From Qipengyuania sp. S6317L1 (GTDB lineage Bacteria > Pseudomonadota > Alphaproteobacteria > Sphingomonadales > Sphingomonadaceae): 64,000 nucleotides of DNA. The stretch spans positions 248,001 to 312,000 of the forward strand of contig NZ_JALKAJ010000002.1 of the NCBI RefSeq assembly GCF_023015615.1. The letters run 5' to 3'. Shown here one piece after another: positions 32,037-49,681 of this stretch. The position numbers and the translations under genes were made by a program. Under the pieces are notes generated by a model. It was not told the DNA's origin. It did no database searches and was given only the letters and a program-made list of their open reading frames with translations. Position 1 is the stretch's first letter; every line of letters begins with the position of its first letter.

Positions 32037-32511
32037 TCGCCGCGCCCCCGCTCGTTCGCCTGCCCACACCCGTACGCGCCGACCGATCCTTGGTCCCACC
32101 TTTGGTCGCGCGAGGTTGGAATTCAAATCCATGAATGCGCCAGCGGCGAAAAGCCCTCACCCCATGCGCGCCCGAAAAACCACCGCCGACCGGCTGCGCG
32201 AGGCATTGTTCAAACTCACCGGAATTTCCTTCCCTGAACAGTGTCTCAAGTGTCTCAAGTGTCTCAAACATGAGGAAAGCGCCTGGAGTTCAATCACATT
32301 CTCCGGCACACGCCACGAGGTGACGCTGGTATTCGAAGGTGCAGAAGCTGTGGCGAAGGGCGAGGAGTTTATGGAGACTCTGCCCGAGCACGAATTCACC
32401 ATCCCCGGCCATTTGGTTGCCGATGCCAGTATCCGCGAAGTTGACCACCGATTTGGCCTACACGAGCGGTTGCAAGTGACAGCGGTGCTGCTGCTGTTGG
32501 AGGATAGTTGA
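32026..32511 (+). CDS. Hypothetical protein containing a CLK tripeptide repeat
   Basis: 161 residues, unrecognised. A basic N-terminus (LLDRRAPARSPAHTRTRRP) is followed by a helical region and then CLK-CLK-CLK, encoded by three copies of the 9-base unit TGTCTCAAG/A. The C-terminal half is a mixed alpha/beta stretch (WSSITFSGTRHEVTLVFEGAEA ... GHLVADASI) that looks conserved. Start ATG 32026 lies inside the end of the preceding gene, suggesting coupling. The repeat unit keeps frame, so copy number could vary without breaking the protein. Confidence 0.6.
   Translation: MLLDRRAPARSPAHTRTRRPILGPTFGRARLEFKSMNAPAAKSPHPMRARKTTADRLREALFKLTGISFPEQCLKCLKCLKHEESAWSSITFSGTRHEVTLVFEGAEAVAKGEEFMETLPEHEFTIPGHLVADASIREVDHRFGLHERLQVTAVLLLLEDS
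32241..32270 (+). repeat. 9-bp tandem repeat, three copies
   Basis: Three consecutive copies of a unit close to GTGTCTCAA, preceded by ACA, lie inside a coding region and encode CLK repeats. The first two copies with flanking bases are identical over 22 bases to a two-copy array at 49597-49618. Confidence 0.85.
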
Positions 32512-32622
32512 TACGTGACCAATCGAGCCGTAAGCTCGCGGGCGTGACCCCGCGCCCGCAGCGGCGACAGCTTGCCTGCCCGTCTAGCGAGGAGTTAGGC
32601 CCGGATGGGCCTAACCAGTCGA
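32512..32622. terminator. Convergent gap with two hairpins
   Basis: Between two convergent genes lie two strong stems: GCGGGCG (32538-32544) with CGCCCGC (32553-32559), and GTTAGGCCC (32594-32602) with GGGCCTAAC (32607-32615), a perfect 9-bp stem with a GGAT loop eight bases after the aldehyde dehydrogenase stop. Neither has a long T-run. They probably stop transcription from both sides, but with weaker evidence than the acnB terminator. Confidence 0.5.
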
Positions 32623-33999
32623 TTACGCATTGATCACGATCATCTTCTCGATGGTCATTTCGTGCATCGTGTAAGGGATGCCGCCGACGCCGTGGCCCGA
32701 GGTCTTGAGGCCGGCGAACGGCATCCAGTCCACGCGGAAGGCGGAGTGGTCGTTCACCATCACAGCCGAGGCGTTGATGTTACGATAAGTGTGCATCGCG
32801 CCCTTCAAGTCGTTGGTGAACACCGCCGCCTGAAATGACACGTCGAGCGAATTGGCCTGAGCAATCGCATCGTCGACATCGTCGTAGGAATAGACGCAAA
32901 CCACCGGGCCAAAGACCTCATGGGTCGAGACCTTCGCATCCTTGGGCGGGTTGAGCAGCACCGTGGGGGCGTAGGTCGTGTCGGAGAGTTTCTCACCACC
33001 GCAAAGGACCCCGGCCCCGCCCTCACGCGCTTCTTCGACCCATTCGGCCACGCGGTCGGTTTCCGCAGGCCTGATGAGAGGCCCGCATTCGGTGTCTTCC
33101 TGCGTCGCATTGCCGACTTTAAGCTCTTTTGCCGCCGCAGCCATGCGCGACGAAAGCTCCTCCACGACCGAGGCGTGCGCAAATATCCGCTGAACCGAAA
33201 CGCACACCTGGCCCGAGTGATAAAAGCCGCCCTTCATCAAAGCAGGAACGGCGGCATCGAGATCGGCGGTTGCATCGACGATCACCGGCGCAACCCCGCC
33301 ATGTTCGAGCGCGCAGCGTGTACCGGGCGAAAGCTTGGAACGAAGGCCCCAGCCAACACCCGCCGAACCGATAAAGGTGAAGAAAGCGACGCGCGGGTCG
33401 GTCACCATCTTCTCCGACGCCTCACGCGATGGTGCGACCGCTTTGGCCCATTCTTTTGGAAGGCCCGCCTCGTGCAAAATATCGATGAATTCAAAGCAGG
33501 ACAGCGGTGTGTCGCTGGCAGGCTTTACGATCACCGGGCACCCCGTTGCGACCGCTGGCGCGACTTGGTGAACGATGAGATTCAGCGGATGATTGAACGC
33601 GGAGACCGCCACCACAGGGCCGATAGGCTCGCGCGTGGTCCAGGCAAACCTTCCATCACCAGAGGCGCTCAAGCCCATCGGGATTTCGGTGCCGCGCACG
33701 TTGCCAAGGTCTTCGATGCAAAGCTCAACCCCCTTGATCGCCCGATCCGCTTCGACCCGCGCATCGATCAATGGTTTTCCGCCTTCATTGGCGATCTGGA
33801 AAGCGAGGTGGTCACGCCGCTCTTTCATGATCTTCACGACCTTCTCGAGGATGCCTGCGCGCTCATGCGTTTTCATCCACGTCGAGCGGTCTTCCGAAAG
33901 CTCATGCGCCCGCGTCAGGAACGCGTCGATTTCGTCCCATTCGGCCGTAGGCACCTGGCCGATTTCGGAAAGGTCGAACGGGTTGACGACTGTCTTCAT
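32623..33999 (-). CDS. NAD(P)-dependent aldehyde dehydrogenase
   Basis: 458 residues, aldehyde dehydrogenase superfamily. Conserved parts are AVSAFNHPLNLIVHQVAPAVATGCPVIVKPA, FIGSAGVGW, ALEHGG (catalytic Glu region), SGQVCVSVQRIF (catalytic Cys, about 275) and EVFGPVVCVYSY near the end. It resembles the lactaldehyde/succinate-semialdehyde branch, but the substrate cannot be assigned. Two ATGs in tandem; the second (33999) is better spaced from AGGAG. It follows the acetolactate synthase gene by 30 bases and is very likely in the same operon. Confidence 0.9.
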   Translation of the reverse strand: MKTVVNPFDLSEIGQVPTAEWDEIDAFLTRAHELSEDRSTWMKTHERAGILEKVVKIMKERRDHLAFQIANEGGKPLIDARVEADRAIKGVELCIEDLGNVRGTEIPMGLSASGDGRFAWTTREPIGPVVAVSAFNHPLNLIVHQVAPAVATGCPVIVKPASDTPLSCFEFIDILHEAGLPKEWAKAVAPSREASEKMVTDPRVAFFTFIGSAGVGWGLRSKLSPGTRCALEHGGVAPVIVDATADLDAAVPALMKGGFYHSGQVCVSVQRIFAHASVVEELSSRMAAAAKELKVGNATQEDTECGPLIRPAETDRVAEWVEEAREGGAGVLCGGEKLSDTTYAPTVLLNPPKDAKVSTHEVFGPVVCVYSYDDVDDAIAQANSLDVSFQAAVFTNDLKGAMHTYRNINASAVMVNDHSAFRVDWMPFAGLKTSGHGVGGIPYTMHEMTIEKMIVINA

Positions 34000-34029
34000 C
34001 ATTGTCTCCTGACGGGGTCGCGGGAAAGC

Positions 34030-35709
34030 TTAAAGCTCGGCGCTCAATTTCTTGATGTCGTGGTTCAGGATCTGGTCGTTCTCAGAATAGTCAACCGGAC
34101 AATCGATGAGATGCACACCCGGCGTGTCGCGGCAATGGGCGAGGAGTTCGGTCAAGTGCTCGCTGCTCTCCACCCGGTGCCCTTTTGCTCCGTAACTCTC
34201 TGCATATTGGACATAGTCCGGGTTCCCATAGGTGAGACCAAAGTCGTTAAAGCCCATGTTCGCCTGTTTCCAGCGGATCATGCCATAGGCATCATCGCGA
34301 AGGATCAACACAGTCAGATTGAGTCCCAAACGCACCGCGGTTTCCATCTCCTGGCTGTTCATCATGAAGCCGCCATCGCCGCAAATCGCCATCACGTGGC
34401 GGTCGGGGTAGAGCATCGCGCTCATCATCGCAGACGGAAGCCCTGCACCCATGGTCGCAAGCGCATTGTCGAGCAGCACGGTGTTTGGAAGGTATGCCGT
34501 ATAGCCGCGCGCAAACCAGATCTTGTAGACACCGTTATCGAGACAAATAATACCATCGTGCGGCACTGCCTCGCGCACCTGTTTCACCAGATGCGGCGGG
34601 AAGATGGGAAAGCGCGCATCGTCAGCAAGTTTGCCTGTGTGTTCGAGCTCGGCCTGGTGATATTCGAGCATATGCCCAAAATCCCAGCTGCGATTGGGCG
34701 AGATGTCTTCCTTGATCTGCCAGATCGCATTGCCAATATCCCCGATCACCTCGATTTGCGGGAAATAAACAGGGTCGACTTCGGCGGTGTTGGTCGAGAC
34801 GTGAATGACCGTCTGTCCGCCGGTTTTGGGATCATCGAAGACATTCTTCATGAAGAAGGGCGGCTTCTCGATCACGTCGTGGCCAACATTGATGATGCAG
34901 TCGCTTGCCTCGACCGCGCGGTGGACAAAATCGCCAGCCGACAAGGCTGCACAGCCCAGGAATTTGGGGTGGCGTTCGTCGATCACACCCTTGCCCATTT
35001 GTGTGGTGAGGAACGGGATGCCCGTCTTCTCGACCAGTTGCTCAAGCATGCGCCCTGCCGTCTTGCGGTTGGCCCCTGCGCCAATAACAATCACGGGGTT
35101 CTTTGCGCTCTCGATCGCTTTGACGGCCGCACGGACCGCTTTGTGTTCCGCCGACGGGCGGCGCGCGACGCTCCTGGGAAGCGGGTGCCAATCGGTCGTG
35201 GGTTCTTCGGCGATGTCTTCGGGCAGCTCGATCAGGGTCGCACCAGGCTTTTCTTCTTCGGCCAGGCGATAAGCCTCGCGTACGCGGCTGGGGATGTTGT
35301 CGCCCGCTGCAATCTGGATCGAATACTTCGTCACCGGCTCCATCAAAGAGACGATATCGACAATCTGGAAACGGCCTTGCTTCGACTTCTTGATCGGCTT
35401 TTGCCCGGTAATCATCAGCACCGGCATCCCGCCAAGTTGAGCATAGGCTGCGCTTGTTACAAAGTTGGTTGCGCCCGGACCAAGCGTCGCGACGCACACC
35501 CCGGTCTTGCCCGTGTGGCGGCCATAGGTCGCGGCCATGAAGCCTGCGCCTTGTTCATGGCGGGTGAGGATCAGCTTGATCTTGTCCGAGCGCCCGAGCG
35601 AATCGAGAAAGTCCAGGTTCTCTTCACCCGGCACGCCAAAGATGTATTCGCACCCTTCGGCTTCCAGACATTCGATGAAAACGTCGGACGCTTTTTTGGT
35701 ATCGGTCAT
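34030..35709 (-). CDS. Thiamine-diphosphate acetolactate synthase-type enzyme
   Basis: 559 residues, large-subunit acetolactate synthase family. The TPP-activating Glu52 is in RHEQGAGFM; the cofactor-binding motif MAICGDGGFMMNSQEMETA is in the C-terminal third. It forms acetolactate from pyruvate, or an analogous carboligation. No small regulatory subunit (ilvN/ilvH) is adjacent, and it pairs with an aldehyde dehydrogenase, so a catabolic role (AlsS-like) seems more likely than valine/leucine synthesis. Start ATG 35709 with a G-rich ribosome site upstream. Confidence 0.88.
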   Translation of the reverse strand: MTDTKKASDVFIECLEAEGCEYIFGVPGEENLDFLDSLGRSDKIKLILTRHEQGAGFMAATYGRHTGKTGVCVATLGPGATNFVTSAAYAQLGGMPVLMITGQKPIKKSKQGRFQIVDIVSLMEPVTKYSIQIAAGDNIPSRVREAYRLAEEEKPGATLIELPEDIAEEPTTDWHPLPRSVARRPSAEHKAVRAAVKAIESAKNPVIVIGAGANRKTAGRMLEQLVEKTGIPFLTTQMGKGVIDERHPKFLGCAALSAGDFVHRAVEASDCIINVGHDVIEKPPFFMKNVFDDPKTGGQTVIHVSTNTAEVDPVYFPQIEVIGDIGNAIWQIKEDISPNRSWDFGHMLEYHQAELEHTGKLADDARFPIFPPHLVKQVREAVPHDGIICLDNGVYKIWFARGYTAYLPNTVLLDNALATMGAGLPSAMMSAMLYPDRHVMAICGDGGFMMNSQEMETAVRLGLNLTVLILRDDAYGMIRWKQANMGFNDFGLTYGNPDYVQYAESYGAKGHRVESSEHLTELLAHCRDTPGVHLIDCPVDYSENDQILNHDIKKLSAEL

Positions 35710-35923
35710 GCTTGCAATTCCCCCCTGTTGGCGCGTGTCCGGCATGGTCAACGCAGCCGCAAAACTCGTGCGCCCCGAGGGAGAAAGTCACCTGCGACTG
35801 CAGGAACTTCAAAGAACCATTCCCCCAAACGGTTCGCGTCTAATCGGCCGTGTGGACCGGTTGCAGGTTCATGTATTGCAGGAATCCGTCAGAATCCAAG
35901 TGCACAATGCACATTTCGCAAGA

Positions 35924-36862
35924 TCAATAGCCCAGCTTCGGATCGAAAATCGGAGAGAGCGGCTCGCCGCGCTGGTACTTCGCAAGGTTCTCAAGGAAGC
36001 GTTGGGCGCTGCGAATGAACATCATGTTTTGCGCCCTGCCCGAAAGGTGCATCGAGATGTGTGCGTTGTCGAGCGTCCAAAGCTCATGGGTTTCCGGCAG
36101 GGGTTCAGGGGTGGTCACATCAAGAAACGCACCTTCGATGGAGCGGGTCTTGAGCGCCTCGATCAAGGCGGGCTGATCGACAACTTCGCCGCGGGCGATA
36201 TTCACGAGAACACATTCGCGCTTCATGGCGGCAAGTTCATCGGCGCCGATCATATTCTCGGTTTCTGGTGTTGCAGGGACCGCAAGGATTACCCAGTCAA
36301 ATTCGCCCAGTTTTCCGCGCCATTCGTCAGGCGAAAGTACACCTTCTCCGCCCGAACGGCGCACCACGGTCACATCGACATCGAACGCTTCGAGCCGTGG
36401 CTTGATCAGCTTGCCAATGGCGCCATAGCCAAGCAGCAGCGCTTTGGAGCCAGCGAGTTCGCGCTTGCCGGGGCTGTCCATCAGCCACTCGCGCCGCTCC
36501 TGCGCGCGCACAACATCGCGGTAGCCCTTTGCGATATTAAGCATACCCATGACGGTGTATTCGGCAATCGTGATCGCATTGATGCCAACGCCATTGGTCA
36601 CGGTGATCCCGCGCTCGATCAGAACGTCCATCGGCAGGAAATCGAGCCCTGCGTAGATGGAATTGAGCCATTTGAGGTCGGTCGCAGCGTGAAGCGCTGC
36701 TGCCATCGCGGGCTTCTCGTTCATATCGAACCAGCCGATTTCCGCGCTCTTCACCGCTTCGAGAGCTTCCTCATGGGTCATGAACCAACGGACATCGAGG
36801 TCCTTGGGCAATTGCGGTTCGAGCAGCGGGCGGATCAGGCCCGAGATTGCCAAAGTCGTCAT
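35924..36862 (-). CDS. D-2-hydroxyacid dehydrogenase family protein
   Basis: 312 residues. The NAD(P)-binding motif is LLLGYGAIGKLIKPRLEAFDVDV. Catalytic region: VLVNIARGEVVDQPALIEAL (Arg context) and ISMHLSGRAQ (His). GhrA/SerA-like fold without regulatory domain, so likely a glyoxylate/hydroxypyruvate-type reductase or similar; the substrate is not known. The ATG at 36862 overlaps the cysS stop (ATGA), an unusual partner for this enzyme type. Confidence 0.88.
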   Translation of the reverse strand: MTTLAISGLIRPLLEPQLPKDLDVRWFMTHEEALEAVKSAEIGWFDMNEKPAMAAALHAATDLKWLNSIYAGLDFLPMDVLIERGITVTNGVGINAITIAEYTVMGMLNIAKGYRDVVRAQERREWLMDSPGKRELAGSKALLLGYGAIGKLIKPRLEAFDVDVTVVRRSGGEGVLSPDEWRGKLGEFDWVILAVPATPETENMIGADELAAMKRECVLVNIARGEVVDQPALIEALKTRSIEGAFLDVTTPEPLPETHELWTLDNAHISMHLSGRAQNMMFIRSAQRFLENLAKYQRGEPLSPIFDPKLGY

Positions 36863-38298
36863 AGTTTCCACTCCCAACCCAATGGATCGCCGTCCATCAC
36901 ATCTACGCCTTTTGCGATGAGTTCATCGCGGATTGCATCCGAGGTGGCAAAATCCTTCTCTGCACGCGCGGCCTTGCGGCGGGCCAGCGCGTCTTCGATC
37001 TCATCCTCGGTGATTTCCGCAGAGACCGGACGAATGCGAAGTTCCTCGCGGGTCAGGCCAAACAGATTGAGGCCCAGAACCGCGTCCATATGCTCGATGA
37101 CAGCGCGCTTGATTTCAGGCGCGACTTTCTTGACCGCCAACGCTTCCTCAAGGGCCGTCAACGCGACCGGCGTGCCAAGGTCGTCCGAAATCGCTTCGTC
37201 GAACTTGGCAAGAGGCGCTGCAAATTTCTGATGCTCGGCCATCGGCTCGCTTACAACATCTTTAACACGCTCAACTGCGATCACCATGCGCTTCAATCGC
37301 GTAAGAGCCGCCTCAAGCCCCTCCCACGAGAACTCAAGCTCCGAGCGGTAATGCGCCTGCAAGCACATCAGACGATAGCTGAGCGGGTGGAAGCCCTTGT
37401 CGACCAGCAGCTGCAACCGCAGAAACTCGCCGGATGACTTCGACATCTTACCGGACCGCTCAACGAGAAAGTTGTTGTGCATCCAGATGTTCGCACCTGA
37501 ATTGCGCGCCTCGGACAGTCCTCCGCATCCGCAGAACGCCTGATTCTGAGCGATTTCGTTGGGGTGGTGGATTTCGCGGTGGTCGATGCCGCCGGTGTGA
37601 ATGTCGAAGGGGAAGCCGAGCAGCTTCTCACCCATGACCGAGCATTCAAGGTGCCAGCCGGGCGCGCCTTTGCCCCATGGGCTGTCCCATTCCATCTGGC
37701 GCGTTTCGCCTTCCGGGGTCTTGCGCCAAATCGCGAAGTCGCCCGCATTGCGCTTGCCTTCCAGCTTTTCAATCCGTCCCTCGCCTTCCTCGGTGACAGC
37801 ACGCGCAAGCCTTCCGTAATCAGCGACGGTGGAGATGTCGAAATAGAGACCGCTGTCGAGCTCATAGCAGTGTTTGTCCGCCATGGCCTTGCCCCACTCG
37901 ATCATCTCTTCGACATATTCGGTGGCGCGGGGATGCTGCTTCTTCTGGATTCCCAAGCGCGCGAGGTCGTTCTCGAAATCGGCCTGATAAAAGGCGGCGA
38001 TGTCCCATGCGCTTTTGCCTTGGGTCGCCGCCATTTTCTCCATTTTGTCCTCGCCCTCATCCGCGTCAGACGTGAGGTGCCCCACGTCCGTGATGTTGAT
38101 CACGTGGGTGAGCTTATAGCCCTTGTACTGAAGCGTGCGGCCAAGCGTATCGGCAAACACATAGGCGCGCATATTGCCGATATGCTGGTAGTTATAAACC
38201 GTTGGCCCACACGAATAGACCCGCGCCTCGCCTTCGTGGACGGGGACAAAGGGCTCAATTTCGCGGGTCAGCGAGTTGAAGAGTTTAAGCTCGGACAT
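36859..38298 (-). CDS. cysS: Cysteine-tRNA ligase
   Basis: Class I aminoacyl-tRNA synthetase charging tRNA-Cys. 479 residues, with YSCGPTVYNYQHIGNMRAY (HIGH-like signature and a zinc cysteine near residue 30), zinc ligands including CSVMGEKLLGFPFDIHTGGIDHREIHH, and KMSKS (GKMSKSSGEFL). The C-terminal DALR-like helical domain ends with MDGDPLGWEWKL. Its stop overlaps the start of the hydroxyacid dehydrogenase. It lies 49 bases after the nitroreductase on the same strand. Confidence 0.96.
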   Translation of the reverse strand: MSELKLFNSLTREIEPFVPVHEGEARVYSCGPTVYNYQHIGNMRAYVFADTLGRTLQYKGYKLTHVINITDVGHLTSDADEGEDKMEKMAATQGKSAWDIAAFYQADFENDLARLGIQKKQHPRATEYVEEMIEWGKAMADKHCYELDSGLYFDISTVADYGRLARAVTEEGEGRIEKLEGKRNAGDFAIWRKTPEGETRQMEWDSPWGKGAPGWHLECSVMGEKLLGFPFDIHTGGIDHREIHHPNEIAQNQAFCGCGGLSEARNSGANIWMHNNFLVERSGKMSKSSGEFLRLQLLVDKGFHPLSYRLMCLQAHYRSELEFSWEGLEAALTRLKRMVIAVERVKDVVSEPMAEHQKFAAPLAKFDEAISDDLGTPVALTALEEALAVKKVAPEIKRAVIEHMDAVLGLNLFGLTREELRIRPVSAEITEDEIEDALARRKAARAEKDFATSDAIRDELIAKGVDVMDGDPLGWEWKL

Positions 38299-38347
38299 GG
38301 TGGGGCGCTTTTATGAGCAAAGCGCGCCGGGTCAATGGCCGATGCGC

Positions 38348-39010
38348 TTACTCAAAGCCGTGGAAGGTCACGTGCTCATCAAGCGGCACGCGCTCGCGTT
38401 CAAAATTGTTGAGCGGCGCGTCGGGGTCGCGGTAGCCAATCGCCATGCCGCAAAACAGCATGTAACGCTCATGATCGAGGCCGAGGTGCTCGCGGATCGT
38501 GTTGGCGTAAATCGCCATGAATTCCTGATAGCAGCTGTCGAGCCCCTCTTCACGAAGGAGCAACGCCACGGTTTGCAGCCACATGCCAGTGTCCGACCAT
38601 TGCGGCTCTTTCATGAAACGCGGGAAGTAGGTGAACATGACGACAGGCGCATCAAAGCTGTTGGCGTTGCGCGCCATTGCAGCAGCGCGGCCCTCTTTGT
38701 CATCGCGCTCAATCCCCATCGCGCCAAACATGCCTGCTCCCACGGCGTGAAGGCGCGAGAGATAGGCCTCTTCCTGTTCGGGAGCGGTCCAGTCGTATTC
38801 GGGTTTTTCAGGGCCGTTCTTGGCAATCTTGGCCCGAAGCTCTTTGAGCGAGTCCCCGGTGACAACAGCGGCTTCCCAAGGCTGGAAGTTGCAGCCCGAT
38901 GCCGCCCAACGCGCCGTGTCGAGCACGCGGCGGATGGTGGCGAGTTCGACCTTTTGGTCAGTAAACATCCGCACAGAGCGGCGGCTGGTGACGGCTTCGG
39001 TTACGTTCAT
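38348..39010 (-). CDS. Nitroreductase family protein
   Basis: 220 residues, FMN-dependent nitroreductase fold. The opening AVTSRRSVRMFTDQKV, AARWAASGCNFQPWEAAVVTG and the C-terminal MLFCGMAIGYRDPDAPLNNFERER are characteristic. No tandem ferredoxin domain. It probably reduces nitroaromatics or quinones with NAD(P)H; the physiological substrate is unknown. Its ATG overlaps the stop of the barstar-like gene (ATGA), and cysS follows. Confidence 0.9.
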   Translation of the reverse strand: MNVTEAVTSRRSVRMFTDQKVELATIRRVLDTARWAASGCNFQPWEAAVVTGDSLKELRAKIAKNGPEKPEYDWTAPEQEEAYLSRLHAVGAGMFGAMGIERDDKEGRAAAMARNANSFDAPVVMFTYFPRFMKEPQWSDTGMWLQTVALLLREEGLDSCYQEFMAIYANTIREHLGLDHERYMLFCGMAIGYRDPDAPLNNFERERVPLDEHVTFHGFE

Positions 39011-39324
39011 TCTATGATTACCTCTACATCTACGTCATCGCCCCAATCGGGGTCATCAATCCTGTCTTGGCGCGCCTCGACAATCCAAGATGAGAATTCA
39101 CGGAGGAATTGCACAAGAGTACTCGGGGCCTTGGTCACAACCAACTTATAGGGAGGCTGCTCCCGATTGAAGTCGGTCAGATAAATCATTGTTTCAAGGA
39201 AAGCGTCGGCATTGCGACCATGCCCTTCGAAACTCCCAAGGGATTCCGCAAGAGCTTCATAGAAATCTGTCTTGCTATGCCAGCTCGAACCGTCGATCTC
39301 TATTCTCCGAGGCGCCTCACTCAC
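39007..39324 (-). CDS. Barstar-family protein (ribonuclease inhibitor-like), orphan
   Basis: 105 residues. [23 protein letters not shown] ... [16 protein letters not shown] matches the barstar family, in which the GxNxDAL helix carries the acidic residues that plug the barnase active site; here Asp40 and Glu44 correspond to barstar Asp35 and Asp39. Tail [21 protein letters not shown]...DVDVEVIIE matches the final helix and strand. It is coupled on both sides by ATGA overlaps (cobT ahead, nitroreductase behind). No barnase-like RNase occurs in this window, so its target is unknown. Confidence 0.78.
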
Positions 39325-41223: not shown

Positions 41224-41877
41224 TTATACAATCGACTGCCCCGTGGCTTCCCAGTCCTTGAGGAAGCCTTCAATGCCCTTGTCGGTCAGCACGTGGTTGA
41301 ACAGCGCATGGATCACCTTGGGCGGCGCCGTCATGACATCTGCGCCGATCTTCGCAGCTTCGAGCACGTGGGTGACGTGGCGAACGGACGCGACAAGGAT
41401 TTCGGTATCGAAACCATAGTTATCATAGATCAGACGGATGTCCTCGATAAGGTCCATACCTTCAAAGCCGTTGTCATCATGGCGCCCAACGAACGGCGAG
41501 ATAAAGGTTGCACCCGCTTTCGCCGCAAGCAGCGCCTGGTTCGCCGAAAAGCACAGCGTCACATTGACCATCGTGCCATCGCCCGTGAGCGCCTTGCAGG
41601 TCTTGAGCCCATCGACCGTCAGCGGGACCTTGATGCAGACATTGTCCGCGATCTTGCGAAGAACTTCGGCCTCTTTCATCATCGTCTCGTGATCGAGGGC
41701 GACGACTTCTGCGGACACGGGGCCATCGGTGATGCCGCAAATCTCGCGTGTCACTTCCATGAAGTCGCGGCCCGACTTGTGGATCAGCGACGGGTTGGTC
41801 GTAACCCCGTCCAAAAGGCCTGTTGCTGCGAGGTCCTTGATCGCATCAATCTCTGCAGTGTCGGCGAAGAATTTCAT
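41224..41877 (-). CDS. Transaldolase-like aldolase (fructose-6-phosphate aldolase type)
   Basis: 217 residues, the short single-barrel transaldolase subfamily. [16 protein letters not shown] and GVTTNPSLI open the barrel; the Schiff-base lysine is K83 (NVCIKVPLT). Later motifs are [28 protein letters not shown] and [26 protein letters not shown]. Members act as transaldolase or as fructose-6-phosphate aldolase; the length of about 215 residues fits either. It is the first gene before cobT on this strand, 64 bases away. Confidence 0.92.
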
Positions 41878-41987
41878 GGGCGGGGCCTTTCAATCGAGTC
41901 TCTCTTTCGACGCTGATTGCCCGTGTGGAGGGAGATTCGCAACCGGAGAGGTTCGTTGTTTCGGGGATGCCTTGTGCGCGATCAGCC

Positions 41988-42695
41988 CTAGAGCGACCTT
42001 CCAAGCCCAAAGACGCCGATCAGAAGCGGGTCGTTGGTTCCTTGCGGGTTGGCGCGAATGAGCGCTTCTTCATTGCCGATTTCGCTCCAGATCACATCGT
42101 CGATATTGCCCGCAAAACCCTGCACAATACCGCTGATATCTGACCCGCTTACTTCGCGCAGAAGTTCGGAAACCGCCGGGTCGGACGCAATGCGTAGCGC
42201 ATCGCCTAGCTCTGGCACCATCTCGTCGATCAACCGTCCGCCCAACTCCCCGCGCAAGGCAGTGGTTGCCGCCTTTGGGCCCCCGCGCACCAGCTGAACC
42301 GCATTGGCAAAGCCGATGGTCCGCACCGCTTCGGTCACGATGGGCGCGGCCTTGAACGAGGCATCAATGGCAAAGTCGGCAAAAGCATCCTCCAACTGGG
42401 CCTTCACCAGCGTCGAGGTGAGAACCCTCGTCAGGACATTGCCACGCGATCCGAGCATGTCGCCAAGACCAAGCTGAGCCACTTGATTATCCCAGAACCC
42501 GCCGTCCGCGGTAAGCCTTGCAAAAGCATTCTCGCTTGACAGCAGAAGCAAACGCCGCACCGCTTCGGTCAGACTGAAACCGGACGTGCCGGCGCAAGCT
42601 GGAAGGCTGAGCGCTGCCGAAAGCGCGAGACCTCCCCCGATAAACTGACGGCGCGCGACCGGCGTATTTGCAGATGTGTGCGGGGATTTGTGCAT
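41988..42695 (-). CDS. DUF4197 family exported protein
   Basis: 235 residues. The N-terminus has RRQFIGGGLALSAALSLPAC, a twin-arginine-like signal that ends in a possible lipobox, so it is exported and probably lipid-anchored. The rest matches DUF4197, a family of unknown function: DGGFWDNQVAQLGLGDML, then helical repeats and DISGIVQGFAGNIDDVIWSEIGNEEALIRANPQGTNDPLL. GAGGAGG lies six bases before the ATG at 42695, which decides the start over two upstream ATGs. Divergent from priA. Confidence 0.85.
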   Translation of the reverse strand: MHKSPHTSANTPVARRQFIGGGLALSAALSLPACAGTSGFSLTEAVRRLLLLSSENAFARLTADGGFWDNQVAQLGLGDMLGSRGNVLTRVLTSTLVKAQLEDAFADFAIDASFKAAPIVTEAVRTIGFANAVQLVRGGPKAATTALRGELGGRLIDEMVPELGDALRIASDPAVSELLREVSGSDISGIVQGFAGNIDDVIWSEIGNEEALIRANPQGTNDPLLIGVFGLGRSL

Positions 42696-42752
42696 ATGTG
42701 CCTCCTCATTGACTGGCATATTCGCCTCACGCGGCATAGTTGTAGCCCTGCG

Positions 42753-44921
42753 ATGAACCGCGTCCGAATTCTTGTCCTGAATGCAGCACTGGGGCCGCTT
42801 GATTACAAGCTGGCCGAAGCAATGGCTGTGGAAGCCGGGAGCGTCGTGGTCGCGCCCCTGGGCCCGCGCACCGTAACGGGCGTGGTGTGGGACGAAGGGC
42901 GATTACCGGGAGCAGAGGTTGACGCCTCGAAGCTTCGGGCGCTTCGCGAGGTCGTGCCGGTGCCGCCAATCTCAGCGCCGCTGCGTCGCCTGATCGAATG
43001 GACTGCCGACTATTACTGCGCCCCCCTTGCAAGCGTTGCCCGCATGGTTTTGTCAAGCGGCGGCGCATTGGGTGGGCCAACCACAACAACCGAATATCGG
43101 CTGGTCGAAGGGGCCGTGCCTGAACGTATGACCCCGCAGCGCGAGGCGGCGATTGAACTCTTGCACGGCGAGCAGGGCATTTTACGCGAACTATCCGAGA
43201 TTGCAGGGGTTTCGACCGGCGTGCTTAGAGGTCTTGTGAATCAGGGCGTGATAGAGCCGGTGACGGTGGCGATTGATCGGCCCTATCCCCCTAGCGATCC
43301 TGATTTCCATCAGCCAGCATTGTCAGACGATCAAATGCGCGTTGCCAAGACGCTGGTAAAAGCGGTTGAGGCGCGCAAGTTTGAGCCATTCCTGCTCGAT
43401 GGTGTCACAGGTTCGGGCAAGACGGAGACCTATTTTGAACCCGTCGCCGAGGCGCTGCGCATGGGGCGGCAGGTGCTGGTCTTGCTCCCCGAAATTGCGC
43501 TGACTGAGAATTTTCTCACACGGTTTGAACGACGCTTCGGCACAGCGCCGGTGCAATGGCACTCGTCGCTCAAATCCACCGAGAGGCGCCGAGCCTGGCG
43601 GGCGATCAGTGAGGGTTCGGCGCAGGTCATCGTGGGTGCGCGCTCGGCACTGTTCCTGCCCTATGCGAACCTTGGCCTGATCGTCGTCGATGAAGCGCAT
43701 GAGATCAGTTTCAAACAGGATGACGGAGTGCGCTATAACGCGCGCGATGTGTCAGTCATGCGTGCGCGGTTCGAGAAGATCCCCGTGGTGCTCGCCAGCG
43801 CAACGCCTGCGCTTGAAAGCCTGCATATGGCGAACAGCGGGACTTACACAAAGCTTGAACTGCCCAGCCGATTTGGCGGGGCTGAATTGCCTGAAATCAA
43901 GCTCGTCGACCTTACAGAGCATAAGCCGGGGTCGGGATGCTGGCTGGCTGAGCCTTTGGTTGAGGCGCTTGGAAAACGGCTGGAGGCGGGCGAGCAATCG
44001 CTCCTCTTTCTCAATCGGCGGGGCTATGCGCCCCTCACCTTGTGCCGCAATTGCGGGCACCGTTTCCAATGCCCCAATTGCAGTGCGTGGCTGGTCGAAC
44101 ATCGGCTCTCACGCCGCCTTTCCTGCCACCACTGCGGACTTGAGGGACCAGTGCCCGACAGCTGCCCAGAGTGCGGCGAGGCGGATTGCCTGGTCGCCTG
44201 CGGGCCGGGTGTGGAGCGGATTGCCGACGAGGTTGCCGAACGCTTCCCCGATGCGCGCGTTGCGGTGGCGACCTCCGACACGCTTGGCTCGCCCGAACGC
44301 GCCGCCGAATTTATCGCCAAGGCCGAAGCCAAAGCCATCGACGTGATAGTTGGCACGCAGTTGGTGACGAAAGGCTTTCACTTTCCTGACCTTACCCTAG
44401 TGGGCGTGGTCGACGCAGACCTTGGCCTTGAGGGTGGAGATTTGCGCGCGGCAGAACGCACTTATCAGCAGGTCGCGCAGGTCGCTGGACGCGCAGGTCG
44501 CGGGTCGAAACCGGGAGAAGTGCTGATCCAAACGCGCCATCCGGAGGCGACTGTAATCGCGGCGCTAGCCGATGGCGACCGCGACGGGTTCTACGAGGCC
44601 GAAACCGAAGCGCGCCGCGATGCAGGGGCCCCGCCCTTTGGCAGATGGGCCGCGATCATCCTGTCGAGCGAGGACGAACGCGAAGTGCGTGATGTCGCGA
44701 CGCGCATGGGCCATTCGCGCCCGCATCTGGACGATGTGATGATCCTTGGCCCAGCGCCCGCCCCAATGGCGCTCCTTCGCAACCGCTACCGCTACCGCTT
44801 CCTCATCAACGCGCGGCGCAGCGCCAATCTGCAAGGCGCGCTTCGTGATTGGCTCGCCACACAGGAATTCCCCCCCGGCGTACGCGTTGGCGTCGATATC
44901 GACCCATACAGTTTCGTCTAA
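42753..44921 (+). CDS. priA: Primosomal protein N', replication restart helicase
   Basis: 3'-5' helicase that reloads the replisome at stalled forks. 722 residues. The N-terminal DNA-binding domain (about 1-200) precedes the helicase core with Walker A GVTGSGKTE (about 217-225) and DEAH (from 312). The zinc-binding insert has eight cysteines from about 431 (CRNCGHRFQCPNC ... CHHCG ... CPEC). Conserved DTLGSPERAAEF and QVAGRAGRGSKPGEV follow. Start ATG 42753 gives a standard PriA N-terminus; the open frame upstream is not conserved. Confidence 0.95.
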   Translation: MNRVRILVLNAALGPLDYKLAEAMAVEAGSVVVAPLGPRTVTGVVWDEGRLPGAEVDASKLRALREVVPVPPISAPLRRLIEWTADYYCAPLASVARMVLSSGGALGGPTTTTEYRLVEGAVPERMTPQREAAIELLHGEQGILRELSEIAGVSTGVLRGLVNQGVIEPVTVAIDRPYPPSDPDFHQPALSDDQMRVAKTLVKAVEARKFEPFLLDGVTGSGKTETYFEPVAEALRMGRQVLVLLPEIALTENFLTRFERRFGTAPVQWHSSLKSTERRRAWRAISEGSAQVIVGARSALFLPYANLGLIVVDEAHEISFKQDDGVRYNARDVSVMRARFEKIPVVLASATPALESLHMANSGTYTKLELPSRFGGAELPEIKLVDLTEHKPGSGCWLAEPLVEALGKRLEAGEQSLLFLNRRGYAPLTLCRNCGHRFQCPNCSAWLVEHRLSRRLSCHHCGLEGPVPDSCPECGEADCLVACGPGVERIADEVAERFPDARVAVATSDTLGSPERAAEFIAKAEAKAIDVIVGTQLVTKGFHFPDLTLVGVVDADLGLEGGDLRAAERTYQQVAQVAGRAGRGSKPGEVLIQTRHPEATVIAALADGDRDGFYEAETEARRDAGAPPFGRWAAIILSSEDEREVRDVATRMGHSRPHLDDVMILGPAPAPMALLRNRYRYRFLINARRSANLQGALRDWLATQEFPPGVRVGVDIDPYSFV

Positions 44922-44957
44922 ACGCACGCACGCGGCACTTTTCGCACACTCACGCGT

Positions 44958-46532
44958 ATGAAGGCCATGCCCAAAGCCACAACCCTAATTCCCGTTCTCG
45001 GTGACCAGCTCACGCGCAGCCTTCCCTCGATAATGGGGGCCACAAAAGATGGCAGTGTGGTCCTGATGATGGAGGTCTGGGGCGAGGCGACCTACGTCAA
45101 ACACCACAAGCAGAAGATCACGCTGATCTTCTCCGCCATGCGCCATTTTGCGCAGGAACTTCGCGATGCCGGCTGGCAGGTCGACTATGTGAAACTGGAC
45201 GATGAGGACAATTCGGGCAGCTTCACCGGCGAAGTCGCCCGTGCGATCGAACGCCATGATCCCGACACCATCCGAGTAGTCGAAGCGGGCGAATGGCGGG
45301 TGCAGCAATCGCTTGAGGAATGGGCGGACAAATTCGACTGCGAGGTCGAAATCCTGCCCGACAGCCGTTTCCTATGCTCGCATCAGGAGTTTCGCGACTG
45401 GGCCGAGGATCGCAAGCACCTCACCATGGAGCATTTCTACCGCGAGATGCGCAAGAAAACCGGCATCCTGATGAAGGACGACGGCAAACCTGTCGGCGGC
45501 GACTGGAACTACGACAAGGACAACCGCGAACCGCCAAAAGACGAGATGGACCCGCCGCCCGTCCCTAAATTCGAGCCCGATGAAATCACCAAAGAAGTGA
45601 TGAAATTGGTCGAGGACCGCTTTGGCGACCACTTCGGCAATCTTGATAGCTTCCAATGGCCCGTCACCGCCACCGAGGCCGAGAAAGCCGCCGATGCCTT
45701 TTTCGCCCAGAGGATCGAGAAGTTTGGCCCCTATCAGGACGCGATGGTCCACGGGTCAGACGACCTCTATCACTCCATGCTGTCCACCAGCATCAATTGC
45801 GGCCTTCTGGACCCGATCAAGCTGTGCGAGAGAGCCGAGAAAGCGTACGAGGACGGCCGCGCACCCATCAATTCGGTTGAGGGTTTCATTCGTCAGATTA
45901 TCGGCTGGCGCGAATACATTCGCGGTTTTTACTGGCTCAAGATGCCGGACCTGCAGACGGATAACAAACTGAACGCACAGCGCGTACTTCCTGAGTTCTT
46001 CTGGACCGGTGAAACCGATATGCGGTGCCTGTCTGACTGTATCCGCTCAACCCACGAAAACGCGCACGCGCACCACATTCAGCGGCTTATGGTGCTCGGC
46101 AATTTCTGCCTCCTCGCCGGTATCAATCCGAAGGATGTGCAGGATTGGTATCTCGCCGTGTACGCCGATGCCTATGAATGGGTGGAACTTCCCAATGTCT
46201 CTGGCATGATCCTCTATGCCGATGGCGGAAACCTTGCGACCAAGCCCTACGCGGCAAGCGGCAATTACATCAACAAGATGTCCGACTACTGCAAGAAATG
46301 CACATACTCGGTCAGCAAGAAAACGGGCGAAGGTGCGTGTCCGTTCAACCCGCTCTATTGGCATTTCATGGACCGCCATCGCGACCGGCTGGAAAGCAAT
46401 CACCGGATTGGCCGCATCTATTCCAACTGGGACCGCATGGATAAAGAAAAGCGGCGCGATTACCTTGAGAGCGCGCAGCACTTCCTCGACAGTCTTGAGC
46501 CTGCCGACAAAAGTTGGGCGCGAAACGGCTAA
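44958..46532 (+). CDS. FeS-type (6-4) photolyase/cryptochrome-like protein
   Basis: 524 residues of the FeS-BCP family (PhrB/CryB), light-driven DNA repair flavoproteins that carry a [4Fe-4S] cluster. The cluster cysteines are C357 (DMRC), C445, C448 (DYCKKC) and C461 (GACPFN); spacings of 88, 3 and 13 equal those of Agrobacterium PhrB. The N-terminal Rossmann part binds the antenna chromophore in the family; HENAHAHHIQRLM and VSGMILYADGG are conserved FAD-domain parts. 36 bases after priA on the same strand. A repair enzyme for (6-4) photoproducts is likely; a sensory role is possible. Confidence 0.93.
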   Translation: MKAMPKATTLIPVLGDQLTRSLPSIMGATKDGSVVLMMEVWGEATYVKHHKQKITLIFSAMRHFAQELRDAGWQVDYVKLDDEDNSGSFTGEVARAIERHDPDTIRVVEAGEWRVQQSLEEWADKFDCEVEILPDSRFLCSHQEFRDWAEDRKHLTMEHFYREMRKKTGILMKDDGKPVGGDWNYDKDNREPPKDEMDPPPVPKFEPDEITKEVMKLVEDRFGDHFGNLDSFQWPVTATEAEKAADAFFAQRIEKFGPYQDAMVHGSDDLYHSMLSTSINCGLLDPIKLCERAEKAYEDGRAPINSVEGFIRQIIGWREYIRGFYWLKMPDLQTDNKLNAQRVLPEFFWTGETDMRCLSDCIRSTHENAHAHHIQRLMVLGNFCLLAGINPKDVQDWYLAVYADAYEWVELPNVSGMILYADGGNLATKPYAASGNYINKMSDYCKKCTYSVSKKTGEGACPFNPLYWHFMDRHRDRLESNHRIGRIYSNWDRMDKEKRRDYLESAQHFLDSLEPADKSWARNG

Positions 46533-46909
46533 CCCGGCTGAAGCGCTTTCAACAACCCTGCAGCCGCTCTGGTATCGACATACTCTCGAAACCGCGTAAT
46601 CTTGCCATCCTCAATCTCGCCGACAACGCACAAGATAAGCTTGAACGGTGCGCCATCAGGCAACGTTCCGCACACGTCGTGCTCCTCGATGAAGCCGGTG
46701 TCCGTGGCTTGGCGTACCGGATTTTCATAGCGAAAATCGGGCACCACCTTGTGCACCAAGGCGGTGAAACCCATCAGTGTTTCGGCATCCATCGGCGCAC
46801 CGCCGTTTTGTGTCCCTTGGAAAGTGTCAGCGCAAAGGCTTCGCGCAGTCTCCAGGTCCGCCACTTCGAGCGATGTAAAAAAAAGGCTGGCGATTTTGAC
46901 GTTGTCCAT
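46529..46909 (-). CDS. SnoaL/NTF2-like protein
   Basis: 126 residues with an NTF2-like cone fold pattern: an N-terminal helix with VADLETARSLCADTFQG, then strands ending FKLILCVVGEIEDGKITRFREYVDT, which is the SnoaL-like signature. Such proteins are ketosteroid-isomerase-like enzymes or binding proteins; no catalytic identity can be given. Start at ATG 46909; the frame extends further but upstream residues are not family-like. Convergent with, and overlapping by 4 bases, the photolyase. Confidence 0.78.
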   Translation of the reverse strand: MDNVKIASLFFTSLEVADLETARSLCADTFQGTQNGGAPMDAETLMGFTALVHKVVPDFRYENPVRQATDTGFIEEHDVCGTLPDGAPFKLILCVVGEIEDGKITRFREYVDTRAAAGLLKALQPG

Positions 46910-47047
46910 GGGAGCGGACGCTACGGCTTTAGCGTAAGCATTGGAAGAGGTTTCGCAGCCACACCAATGCGCTTTCGACAAATCACTCGACATTCAGCAC
47001 AAGCACCGCAAAAGTCCTGAAAAACTTACACTCAGGAGAGAGCCCAC

Positions 47048-47680
47048 ATGCTGACCGTACACCACCTTCGTATTTCGCAATCAGAGCGTATCGTCTGGCT
47101 GTGTGAGGAGCTGGGGCTCGAATACGATCTCAAGCTCTATAACCGCGATTCCGAGACGCGCCTTGCTCCGCCAGAATTGAAAGCGCTCCACCCGATGGAG
47201 ATCGCGCCGGTCATCACCGATGGCGACTTGGTTCTCGGCGAAAGCGGCGCGATCATGGACTATATCGTGGGCAAATATGCGCCCGATACGGACTTGGTGC
47301 CCGGCCCCGACAGCCCCAATTTTGCGCAGCATCTGTATTGGTATCACTTCGCCAATGCGACGCTGATGACCAATGGCATGATGAGCATTGCGGTGAATGC
47401 CGTCGGCGCACAGATGCCACCCCCGCTTGCCAAACGTATCACCAATGCCTGGGCGCATATCGAAAAGGCGTTGGGCGAGCACGAATATTTTGGCGGGACG
47501 CAGTTTTCGACCGCCGACATCATGCTGGGCTTTTCTCTCACAACGGCGCGCGCGTTCAGCGATATGAGCATCGAGGGCATGCCGAATTTGCAGGCCTATC
47601 TGAAACGCATCGGCGCGCGGCCCGCTTATCAGGCGGCGATGGCCAAGGCTGAACCGGGTTTTCCGCCCAAACTCGACTGA
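47048..47680 (+). CDS. Glutathione S-transferase family protein
   Basis: 210 residues. Thioredoxin-like N-terminal domain (LTVHHLRISQSERIVWLCEELGLEYDL, with the GSH-binding loop APVITDGDLVLGESGAIMDYI including the ES pair) and an all-helical C-terminal domain (STADIMLGFSL). Cytoplasmic; conjugates or reduces small molecules with glutathione. Ribosome site AGGAGAG is close to the ATG. First of a same-strand run with dodecin, OsmC and an SDR. Confidence 0.92.
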   Translation: MLTVHHLRISQSERIVWLCEELGLEYDLKLYNRDSETRLAPPELKALHPMEIAPVITDGDLVLGESGAIMDYIVGKYAPDTDLVPGPDSPNFAQHLYWYHFANATLMTNGMMSIAVNAVGAQMPPPLAKRITNAWAHIEKALGEHEYFGGTQFSTADIMLGFSLTTARAFSDMSIEGMPNLQAYLKRIGARPAYQAAMAKAEPGFPPKLD

Positions 47681-47780
47681 TCGTCCAACCTCTCGCCTCA
47701 TCTTTGGAACAATCTATTCTCCCGCCAGTAGGTGAGGGAAGGACACTGGTGTCAAAAGGCAATTCAAGGAGAGAGCCAAA

Positions 47781-47987
47781 ATGTCAGATCACATTTACAA
47801 AGTCGTCACGGTCGTGGGCAGCTCGACCAAGTCGGTCGAAGATGCCATTCACGGCGCGGTTGCAAAGGCGAATGAGAGCATTCGCAACATGAACTGGTTC
47901 AAGGTCGTCGAAACACGCGGTCACATCGAAGATGGTTCAGTTGCCCATTTCCAAGTCACATTGGACATCGGTTTTACACTCGATTGA
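47781..47987 (+). CDS. Dodecin family flavin-binding protein
   Basis: 68 residues, the size of dodecins, which assemble as dodecamers that store or scavenge flavins. Family motifs are IYKVVTVVGSSTKSVEDAI and NMNWFKVVETRGHIEDG, with the aromatic Trp that stacks on flavin. GGAGAG precedes the ATG. A GGAAC box lies about 70 bases upstream but its partner element is not a good match to a stress sigma promoter. OsmC follows 23 bases later. Confidence 0.92.
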   Translation: MSDHIYKVVTVVGSSTKSVEDAIHGAVAKANESIRNMNWFKVVETRGHIEDGSVAHFQVTLDIGFTLD

Positions 47988-48010
47988 TCGGGTCAAAGGA
48001 GCAACAATCC

Positions 48011-48442
48011 ATGAAAACGACCAATTCCGCCTCCGCCCGCTACGAAGGTCTGGGCAAAACCGGAAAAGGGCATGTCTCCACCAAATCCGGTGCGCTCGAC
48101 AATCCTTATGGTTTCAACACCCGCTTTGAAGACGCGGCGGGCACCAATCCCGAAGAGATGATCGCCGCAGCGCACGCCTCATGCTTCACGATGGCAACCA
48201 GTTTTCAACTGGCAGAAGCCGGGCACGAGGACGGCGAACTTCATTGCGATTGCGATGTGACCCTCGAAGATGATGGCGAAGGCGGCTTTGTCGTCACGAA
48301 AAGTGCATTGAAATTAAAGGGCAAGTTACCCGGTGTCTCAAAGGGCACGTTCGAGGAGCTTGCGAACAAAGCAAAAGAAAATTGCCCTATTTCAAAGCTT
48401 CTCGATTGTGAAATAACGCTCGAAACCGAGTTTGAAGGGTAA
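48011..48442 (+). CDS. OsmC-family peroxiredoxin-like protein
   Basis: 143 residues. OsmC/Ohr fold; the peroxidatic cysteine lies in AAHASCFTMATSFQLAEAG and the resolving cysteine in ENCPISKLL. Reduces organic hydroperoxides or peroxide, in the cytoplasm. AAGGAG precedes the ATG at 48011, which decides the start. Organised with dodecin upstream and an SDR downstream, a plausible oxidative-stress set. Confidence 0.92.
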   Translation: MKTTNSASARYEGLGKTGKGHVSTKSGALDNPYGFNTRFEDAAGTNPEEMIAAAHASCFTMATSFQLAEAGHEDGELHCDCDVTLEDDGEGGFVVTKSALKLKGKLPGVSKGTFEELANKAKENCPISKLLDCEITLETEFEG

Positions 48443-48466
48443 GAGCGCAAGCAGGGCGGGACGACG

Positions 48467-49252
48467 TTGGAACCTTATCAGCCACTCAGCCGCTCTATTT
48501 CAGGCCACAAGGCGGTCGTGACCGGCGCCGCCAGCGGTATGGGCCGGGCGACCGCGCATCTCTTCGCCTCTGAAGGGGCGTTGGTCGCGGTCACTGACCT
48601 TGAGCAGGCGAAATGCGATGCGGTGGCAAGCGAGATCAACAAAGCTGACTATTCGGGCCGCGCTTTTCCCCTTGCTGTTGATGTGAGCGATGAGGCCGCG
48701 ATCAATTCTGGCGTTGAGCGTATCGCTGATGAATTCGGCGGGCTCGACATTGTCGTGAACAACGCAGGTTTCGCGCGCCACGCGCCCATCGAGGATGAAA
48801 GCTATCCCGGTATCTGGGACGCGAGCATTGCCGCAATGCTAACCGGGCAGCAAAGGATGATCCGCGCTGCCATGCCGCATCTTCGCAAAAGTGACTGCCC
48901 GCGCATCGTCAATATTGCTTCGACCGAAGGGCTTGGCGCGACGCCCGGCAATTCGCCCTATGTCGCGGCGAAGCACGGGGTGATCGGGCTTACACGGGGC
49001 CTCGCCGTGGATCTGGGCCGCGATGGTATAACGGTCAATTGCATCTGCCCCGGCCCGATACGCACCGGCATCACGCAAGGCATCCCTGAAGAGCACAAGG
49101 AAATCTACGCCAAGCGCCGCGTGCCTTTGCGCCGCTATGGCATCCCGGAGGAAGTCGCGCATATGACGCTCTCACTGGTGCTGCCTTCGGCGAGCTTTCT
49201 GACAGGTGTCGCGATCCCCGTCGATGGCGGGCTTACAATCAAAAACGCTTGA
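48467..49252 (+). CDS. SDR-family oxidoreductase, TTG start
   Basis: 261 residues, classical short-chain dehydrogenase. Cofactor motif TGAASGMG, NNAG (VVNNAGFARH), catalytic Ser region NIASTEGLG and YVAAKHG (YxxxK), ending in GVAIPVDGGLTI. It begins with TTG at 48467; no ATG lies in a position that keeps the cofactor motif, so the start is judged by homology. Substrate unknown; 24 bases after the OsmC gene. Confidence 0.88.
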   Translation: MEPYQPLSRSISGHKAVVTGAASGMGRATAHLFASEGALVAVTDLEQAKCDAVASEINKADYSGRAFPLAVDVSDEAAINSGVERIADEFGGLDIVVNNAGFARHAPIEDESYPGIWDASIAAMLTGQQRMIRAAMPHLRKSDCPRIVNIASTEGLGATPGNSPYVAAKHGVIGLTRGLAVDLGRDGITVNCICPGPIRTGITQGIPEEHKEIYAKRRVPLRRYGIPEEVAHMTLSLVLPSASFLTGVAIPVDGGLTIKNA

Positions 49253-49559
49253 GATGCGCGCTCTGGTCGGTCACATAGGAGCGATCCAGCACCACAAAGT
49301 CGCCACAAGTGTAGCTGACGTTGCTATGCGTTTTAGTGCGTATCCGAGAGGCCGCGTTGCGAATATAGCTCGAAGTGACATCGTGGGCTGGCGTTTGAGC
49401 GTAAATACTCGACGAGTTCATCCAGCCAAGAATGTCGAAGGTCCATTTCGGGTAAGGCGTATTGCCCGGGTCCCCCGATTTCCTACTGCGCGCGCGCTTG
49501 TTATCGCAGGCCGATGCTTCAGATGGCGCACCACACGATAGATCGTCTTCCTCGATCAA
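49239..49559 (-). CDS. Hypothetical protein, possibly real
   Basis: A minus-strand frame of 106 codons, convergent with and overlapping the SDR gene by 14 bases. Its C-terminal half (SSSIYAQTPAHDVTSSYIRNA...NVSYTCGDFVVLDRSYVTDQ) has protein-like composition and reasonable codon use; the N-terminal half is less convincing, and an internal start may be correct. No family is recognised. This is the only candidate in the gap before the glycosyltransferase gene. Confidence 0.4.
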   Translation of the reverse strand: MIEEDDLSCGAPSEASACDNKRARSRKSGDPGNTPYPKWTFDILGWMNSSSIYAQTPAHDVTSSYIRNAASRIRTKTHSNVSYTCGDFVVLDRSYVTDQSAHLKRF

Positions 49560-49681
49560 AGAGGTCTTTATTGATCGATTTGATTTAAACTCCTGTACAG
49601 TGTCTCAAGTGTCTCAAGCGGCGAAAGCGACGCGCAAAAGATTGACACGAAGCACGGCCCATACGCATGGGAGGGCCCACC
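49560..49681. other. Upstream region of the GT2 gene with a TGTCTCAAG repeat
   Basis: This short gap contains two tandem copies of a 9-bp unit (TGTCTCAAG, at 49597-49618 with flanks) that also occurs in three copies at 32241. A TTGACA-like -35 box is near 49643, and a GGGAGGG ribosome site precedes the ATG. The repeat sits just ahead of the possible promoter, so it could influence expression. Confidence 0.5.

Follow-up and report, generated by a model that had tools for sequence, protein, structure and literature searches.

A recurrent promoter-like box, short reading frame and tandem 9-bp core in Qipengyuania and other Sphingomonadaceae as a candidate composite cis-regulatory element

Introduction

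Several described systems resemble, in part, the sequence element treated here. Upstream open reading frames (ORFs) and leader peptides are short ORFs ahead of a gene whose stop codon often overlaps the next start. Rickettsia palindromic elements are dispersed alphaproteobacterial repeats, copies of which may be found in frame within genes, and ParB/Noc or LexA are examples of specificity shifts that go along with co-evolving operators. Gyrase sites form a further class: the E. coli gyrase motif consists of a 36-bp centre and 47-bp arms with a 10.75-bp G+C periodicity (PMC6379681), and a second paper describes G+C periodicities of 10–11 bp for the gyrases of three species (PMC12324340). The element described here contains a 9-bp tandem repeat that occurs at two sites in a stretch of 64,000 nucleotides (the window) from Qipengyuania sp. 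S6317L1 (contig NZ_JALKAJ010000002.1, positions 248,001 to 312,000 of the forward strand). In the genome of this organism and in its relatives the repeat is part of a longer, recurrent layout with a promoter-like box, a short ORF and a T tract, and we judge the chances to be about evenly balanced that it provides the recognition core for a composite cis-regulatory element in the Sphingomonadaceae.

As in upstream ORF systems, the short ORF of the element precedes a gene and its stop often overlaps the start codon. The element differs from these systems in a nucleotide core that falls in all three frames, in ORFs that are apparently leaderless, and in its additional placement between convergent genes, where the frame is open in antisense. 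Like a Rickettsia palindromic element, one core in the window (site 1) lies in frame inside a gene, whereas the element is mostly intergenic, has promoter-like parts and shared positions, and consists mostly of non-palindromic units. It resembles the transcription-factor regulons of ParB/Noc and LexA in a site that is uniform per genome and shifted in a relative, with neighbouring genes shared; unlike them, its site is very long, nearly invariant and found also between convergent genes, and its factor is only postulated. With strong gyrase sites (phage Mu SGS, BIME-2 and the motif of PMC6379681) the element has in common a phasing of ~11 bp, a ~36-bp centre, a mostly intergenic location and a possible, post-hoc match to the Mu site. 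Its highly specific, asymmetric core, which changes between sister species, and its promoter-like box and ORF distinguish it from them.

Taken singly, the parts of the element are of known kinds. We call the element as a whole new because searches of Rfam and of open-licence PubMed Central (PMC) papers returned no such element. Comparison of ten loci with 4227 Rfam families gave eight matches up to an E value of 10, all of them below the gathering thresholds and none at the element. Six core strings were absent from open-licence PMC papers, and searches of the open-licence literature on Erythrobacter intergenic motifs, Novosphingobium leaderless promoters and conserved upstream ORFs listed no paper on the element. 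The best Rfam match, anti-hemB at positions 2178–2261 of locus L148 (minus strand, 31.9 bits with a gathering threshold of 49.5), lies ~650 bp from the locus centre.

Results

Copies of the repeat and layout of the core

Site 1 of the window carries three copies of the repeat and site 2 carries two (Table 1). The sequence-only reading that had reported them was right about the repeat and 1–4 bp off in its coordinates, and the 22-base identity that it saw between the two sites, ACAGTGTCTCAAGTGTCTCAAG, was borne out. Tandem Repeats Finder gave spans of 32240–32267 and 49599–49618, in a different register. Three matches to an 18-mer (up to three mismatches) are present in the window, compared to 0.02 expected. 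In the 3.14-Mb source genome (G000), a 17-mer with up to one mismatch gave 22 matches at 20 separate places, as two three-unit arrays match twice, and a 19-mer with up to three mismatches gave 25 matches; both reversed controls gave none. A simple gene caller based on codon usage, for which the window and the loci served as training data, placed 17 of the 20 loci outside called genes and three within them. The idea of a dispersed element, raised in the sequence-only reading, thus holds, with 20 places that are mostly intergenic and whose positions are common to relatives, and the opposite case considered there, a string limited to two sites and lacking conservation, does not apply.

The core alignment of 21 sites of the source genome, with some rows dropped, revealed a motif spanning about −17 to +19, in which the T tract is followed by pyrimidines, TGGACAG, a pair of 9-bp units and AAAC. 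The copy number of three versus two at the window sites might suggest that the repeat is no more than a phase-variable tandem tract or was duplicated by chance. This is very improbable in view of the 20 places in the genome, the fixed layout, the shared positions and the reversed controls near zero. The phase-variable tract that had been proposed is also at odds with the finding that only two of the 21 sites in the source genome have three units and the rest two, all within a longer fixed layout, and that the change between the species compared concerns the unit and not the copy number.

A promoter-like box and a short reading frame

A box with the sequence T(T/G)TCCTAC was found in 114 of the 144 sites compared, mostly between −119 and −104; the element family also has an extended −10-like sequence, TG-n-(C/T)A. 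An ATG lies 32–49 bp downstream of the box start in 100 of the 114 boxed sites and 35–37 bp downstream of it in 91, and the spacing of box, −10-like sequence and ATG is compatible with a leaderless transcript. We propose that the nearly invariant box and the extended −10-like sequence would act as a promoter, with transcription starting at or next to the ATG and thereby yielding a leaderless mRNA. The ATG would be followed by a C-rich short ORF of ~25 codons up to the core, then by a T tract, with the core GGACnGTGTnnCAnG(T/C)GnnnC(A/C) usually located 67–85 bp past the ATG.

The reading frames support the presence of such an ORF. From the third ORF codon onwards, the frame reached the core without a stop in 88 of 98 sites, compared to 60 of 98 in shuffled sequences. 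In 42 cases the right-hand gene is on the same strand and no more than 70 bp away, and in 20 of these the ORF stop falls within −6 to +4 of the gene start, versus three and one in the other frames; a frame that is open to the next start codon and ends there, as in upstream ORFs, is hence a tendency of the family. At 21 convergent sites, all non-redundant by an identity filter and read to ~118 bp past the core start, the frame was without a stop in 20 cases, versus six and eight in the other frames. With a close downstream gene, the short ORF often ends at the start codon of that gene, and the two are probably coupled in translation; the open antisense frame between convergent genes hints at a need for translation to continue beyond the core. 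A conserved peptide was rejected as an explanation, as the core occurs in each of the three frames (42, 33 and 25 of 100).

The T tract could alternatively be the U-tract of intrinsic terminators, or the sites could be roadblocks, with the core enhancing termination. The fixed place of the T tract and a few clear hairpins (e.g. at loci L106 and L083) are in line with this, as is the co-directionality of tandem sites with both genes in the source genome (11:0, 20 loci), in G003 (4:0, 20 of 26 matches fetched), in G069 (8:0, 13 of 22 matches fetched) and in the uncultured Erythrobacter isolate 2-490-G (2:0, seven loci). In the mixed remainder, whose loci include many short ones and some repeats, the bias is weaker (37:12, or 31:10 without identical windows). 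Divergent and convergent placements are likewise common, and sites between divergent genes do not fit a terminator. A GC-rich hairpin right before the T tract, as intrinsic terminators have it, is present at only a few single sites: a stem abuts the T run in 69% of the 144 sites versus 62% of shuffles, with energies close to shuffled ones. A Rut-like skew of C over G is weak. Moreover, the frame bias indicates continued translation and not an end. Terminators or roadblocks are therefore an improbable explanation.

Different units at shared positions

The element is widespread in related genomes. Isolate 2-490-G contains seven exact 25-mers. Among 114 genomes of the same genus, TCNGGACAGTGTCTCAAGTGTC (up to three mismatches) matched in 42 (control 0), the generic pattern GGACAGTGTNNCANGTGTNNCA (one mismatch) in 65 (control two hits) and the palindromic pattern (one mismatch) in 36 (control 0); these counts overlap, as some genomes with the palindromic pattern are of the TGTTCC type. 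A composite pattern of box, 80–110 bp, TTTT and GGAC was present in 69 of the 114 genomes, up to 21 times in each, with 0–2 hits per genome in the controls. In a sample of the family, 56 of 298 genomes and 26 of 96 genera had matches (control one hit).

Among the matches listed, the unit is largely uniform per genome and different between species. It is TGTCTCAAG in the source genome, TGTGTCAAG in G069, TGTTCCAAG or its -ATG form in, for example, G002, G062 and G067, TGTCTCATG in, for example, G003 and G071, and GGACCGTGTAACATGCGGTCC in, for example, G018 and G074, with mixed units in G063 and G079. The same layout accompanies these other units, whether TGTGTC, TGTTCC, TGTCTC-ATG or the palindromic type. 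Orthologous positions retain the element with a unit that differs between species, namely at ilvA, queE, lpd, chpT, ispG, pdxH, rplK, ctrA, gltA, purA, rimO, moaC and a convergent locus with a uracil-DNA-glycosylase-like gene (locus names are our reading of protein starts). The source genome and G069 are sisters in a 30-genome GyrA tree without support values and have at least five loci in common (lpd, ybeY, queE, pdxH and the uracil-DNA-glycosylase-like locus), with CT units in one genome and GT units in the other. As a separate observation, loci L134, L229 and L234 contain repeated (G)GTGACACTTT-type units within ~75 bp upstream of the core.

A putative sequence-specific factor may bind the core and bend or wrap the DNA on both sides, by which it would control the transcription coming from the box. 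Factor and sites would co-evolve, such that a shift in the specificity of the factor would move all cores of a genome together. The protein-binding site of the sequence-only reading seems to point in the right direction, while the binding itself is something that we infer from the sequence. A small-terminase-like helix-turn-helix (HTH) gene (L382, L394 and L397) was considered as the factor and set aside, as two of the genomes that carry it, G024 and G077, match no element pattern. The HTH protein has 220–224 amino acids, is encoded from position ~1535 onward in these three loci behind a TTTCCTAC-type promoter, an arrangement also present in G024 and G077; the L394 protein, the only one searched, matched phrog_4044 (E 1.3e-12), which is terminase small subunit-like.

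A mobile or selfish repeat, similar to miniature inverted-repeat transposable elements (MITEs) or Rickettsia palindromic elements and inserting between genes as well as in frame inside genes, might also produce such a distribution. At ilvA, compared in 29 genomes, the divergent genes are 197–303 bp apart in the 12 genomes with the element; in the 17 genomes without it the distance is 59–78 bp, except for three at 131 bp and G003 at 271 bp, and these exceptions hold another repeat. In nine of the 12, a short-form end (AAAnnGATC-like) stands right before the extra DNA, while it is not recognisable in G021, G074 and G108. The in-frame gain at site 1 (see below) would fit a mobile repeat as well, as would the fact that some genomes match no pattern while near relatives in the GyrA tree have at least 20 matches (e.g. 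G095 versus G003). On the other hand, the aligned sites of the source genome have little sequence in common between box and T tract and are thus apparently not recent copies of a master; likeness over the whole length, as in MITEs, is not found, box and core being the common parts. Where different species have a copy at one and the same locus, the position is kept and, at ilvA and queE, also the sequence near the box. Neither terminal repeats nor target-site duplications were established, the ilvA flanks having been read by eye. No carrier was found either. Of the viral contigs, 31 match a loose pattern, with TTT near its place in three, equal units in six, both in none and the palindromic type in none, so that these matches look like chance. 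A single copy was detected among 72,556 plasmid records (L283, Qipengyuania citrea plasmid NZ_CP098495.1), with a palindromic-type core between convergent genes. Overall, we consider a mobile repeat unlikely. Upstream of ilvA (e.g. L318–L320, L322 and L328), a different palindrome-like repeat, CCGAAAAGTGGGAACCGGTTTTCGG, was observed once, and three times in G003 (L322).

G+C phasing around the core and comparison with gyrase sites

Next to its layout, the element shows a regular phasing of G+C content on both sides of the core. In 136 sites, G+C oscillates with a period of ~11.2 bp upstream, from about −80 to −14 (power 0.174, control maximum 0.026), and of 11.4 bp downstream, past +23 (power 0.076, control maximum 0.020), exceeding all 300 circular-shift controls. 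Between −195 and −110 the best G+C period was 8.8 with a power of 0.0075 (no control run). Upstream phasing was above the controls at '++', divergent and convergent sites. Downstream phasing was above them at '++' sites and at nine '-|-' sites (the latter with 12.2 bp), and not at divergent or convergent sites. In 89 ORFs, codon positions 1, 2 and 3, wobble included, have about the same phase, for which reason an alpha-helix periodicity of the peptide was ruled out as the cause of the 11-bp period. A profile of the arms, trained without G000, G069 and 2-490-G, gave a mean z of 1.04 for 17 sites of the source genome, −0.57 for site 1 and 0.96 for site 2.

A phasing of 10–11 bp that flanks a ~36-bp centre is what gyrase sites have. 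The main rival explanation is accordingly that the elements are strong chromosomal gyrase sites, at which core-bound gyrase would wrap ~70–85 bp on either side and absorb supercoils, with a promoter of its own upstream. The periods of 11.2 and 11.4 bp around a ~36-bp centre resemble the E. coli motif of PMC6379681. In 12 kb of phage Mu, the fourth-best peak of the arms alone misses the centre of the annotated gyrase cut by 5 bp (assuming a 4-bp stagger) and coincides with the cut if the motif centre is set to +9.5, the arms allowing symmetric centres at +3.9 or +9.6. This match is no more than suggestive and requires a centre picked afterwards; with the first-assumed +4.5, the z at the cut is only 1.11. 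The core is also asymmetric and far more specific than the gyrase motif described in PMC6379681 and PMC12324340. In 30 genomes, ten GyrA columns that are fixed within and differ between the T, P and S unit types follow the tree, so that this limited ten-column test gave nothing beyond the tree. GyrA may nevertheless be the determinant of the specificity, given that the source genome and G069 have different GyrA residues at 55 of 907 positions. Gyrase alone is a poor fit to units that are uniform per genome and different in sister species, and we regard this explanation as rather unlikely. Similarly limited is the likelihood that we assign to a more far-reaching version, in which the elements would be chromosome-wide DNA-wrapping stations for gyrase or a gyrase-like factor, each with a leaderless promoter and kept translated, and with the recognition exchanged in concert at some 20–30 places between sister species.

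The two sites of the window

Table 1 Features of the element at the two sites of the window. The table indicates the feature, the position in the window, the strand and remarks.
Feature	Position	Strand	Remarks
Site 1 host gene	32164..32511	+	115 aa, counted from this ATG; open frame extends upstream to 31981
Site 1 TTT tract	32225..32227	+	−11 to −9 from core
Site 1 core	32236..32268	+	GAACAG-TGTCTCAAG-TGTCTCAAG-TGTCTCAAA; within conserved reading frame
Site 1 array	32242-32268	+	TGTCTCAAG TGTCTCAAG TGTCTCAAA; three copies, third ends AAA
Site 2 box	49479..49486	+	TTTCCTAC (family T[T/G]TCCTAC); −35-like; sole exact TTTCCTAC in window
Site 2 extended −10-like	49499..49507	+	TG-n-TATCGC; read from sequence; family pattern
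Site 2 short ORF	49514..49588	+	24 codons; ATG 35 bp from box start; TAA precedes core
Site 2 TTT tract	49584..49586	+	−11 to −9 from core; T tract conserved there in family
Site 2 core	49595..49618	+	GTACAG-TGTCTCAAG-TGTCTCAAG; family consensus starts GGACAG
Site 2 array	49601-49618	+	TGTCTCAAG x2
Site 2 downstream gene	49667..50707	+	Family-2 glycosyltransferase; Pfam PF00535, E 1.2e-17

The array of site 1 is in frame and encodes CLK-CLK-CLK, as had been noticed before, and the gene around it is conserved. This gene has no Pfam family at E 0.1 and was matched in 47 of 80 genomes searched, the source genome among them. In an alignment with the best 29 of the 46 other matches, the core is absent from all 29 orthologues, each of which is eight residues shorter at this place. 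According to this alignment, site 1 is a core gained within a conserved gene, in frame and with a net gain of eight codons, which indicates that a core can be gained alone. The T[T/G]TCCTAC box is absent here on the strand of the core.

At site 2, the one exact TTTCCTAC of the window compares to 0.61 expected by chance, and the weight of the box therefore rests on its place. The −10-like sequence lies 17 bp past the first six box bases. Site 2 looks like a decayed copy of the element, since its short ORF ends before the core and the core starts with GTACAG. A coupling of the ORF stop to the start of the next gene is missing at this site, unlike the tendency of the family. Two further observations concern the window. 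A stretch similar to ATCGATT...TTGATCGA(T) lies 5' of the T tract in loci L114, L119, L121 and L122 of G069 and at 49562–49585 of the window, and ATGCTnCTTGATCG (MLLDR) is present in both reading frames adjoining the arrays (window regions 32026 and 49682).

Discussion

Several points speak against a composite cis-regulatory element. The searches revealed no factor for the core. A recognised box is missing from 30 of the 144 sites, and site 1 demonstrates that a core without a box is possible. For elements located between convergent genes, it is not obvious which gene they would regulate. In each of the frames +1 and +2, 71 of 98 sites likewise lack a stop before the core, so that part of the openness reflects composition, and the open-to-core and ORF-stop counts include orthologous sites, which the convergent test does not. 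The distance from box to core has no significant helical phasing, the '-|-' sites (nine after filtering) lack upstream phasing, and only three of the 17 source-genome sites exceed the 95th percentile of the background by the arms profile.

If the regulatory reading is nevertheless right, a bacterial family uses a dispersed element of promoter, ORF and core that some close relatives lack and that lies near core genes such as ilvA, lpd, queE, ybeY, ispG, gltA, purA, chpT and ctrA. It would then offer a clean natural series in which the specificity of a factor and that of its sites shift jointly, an unusual case in that many sites change together, and the unit types would provide ready pairs of species for finding the factor along with the residues that determine its specificity. 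Should the elements instead be wrapping stations, they would represent a new type of hard-wired element with a topological or regulatory role.

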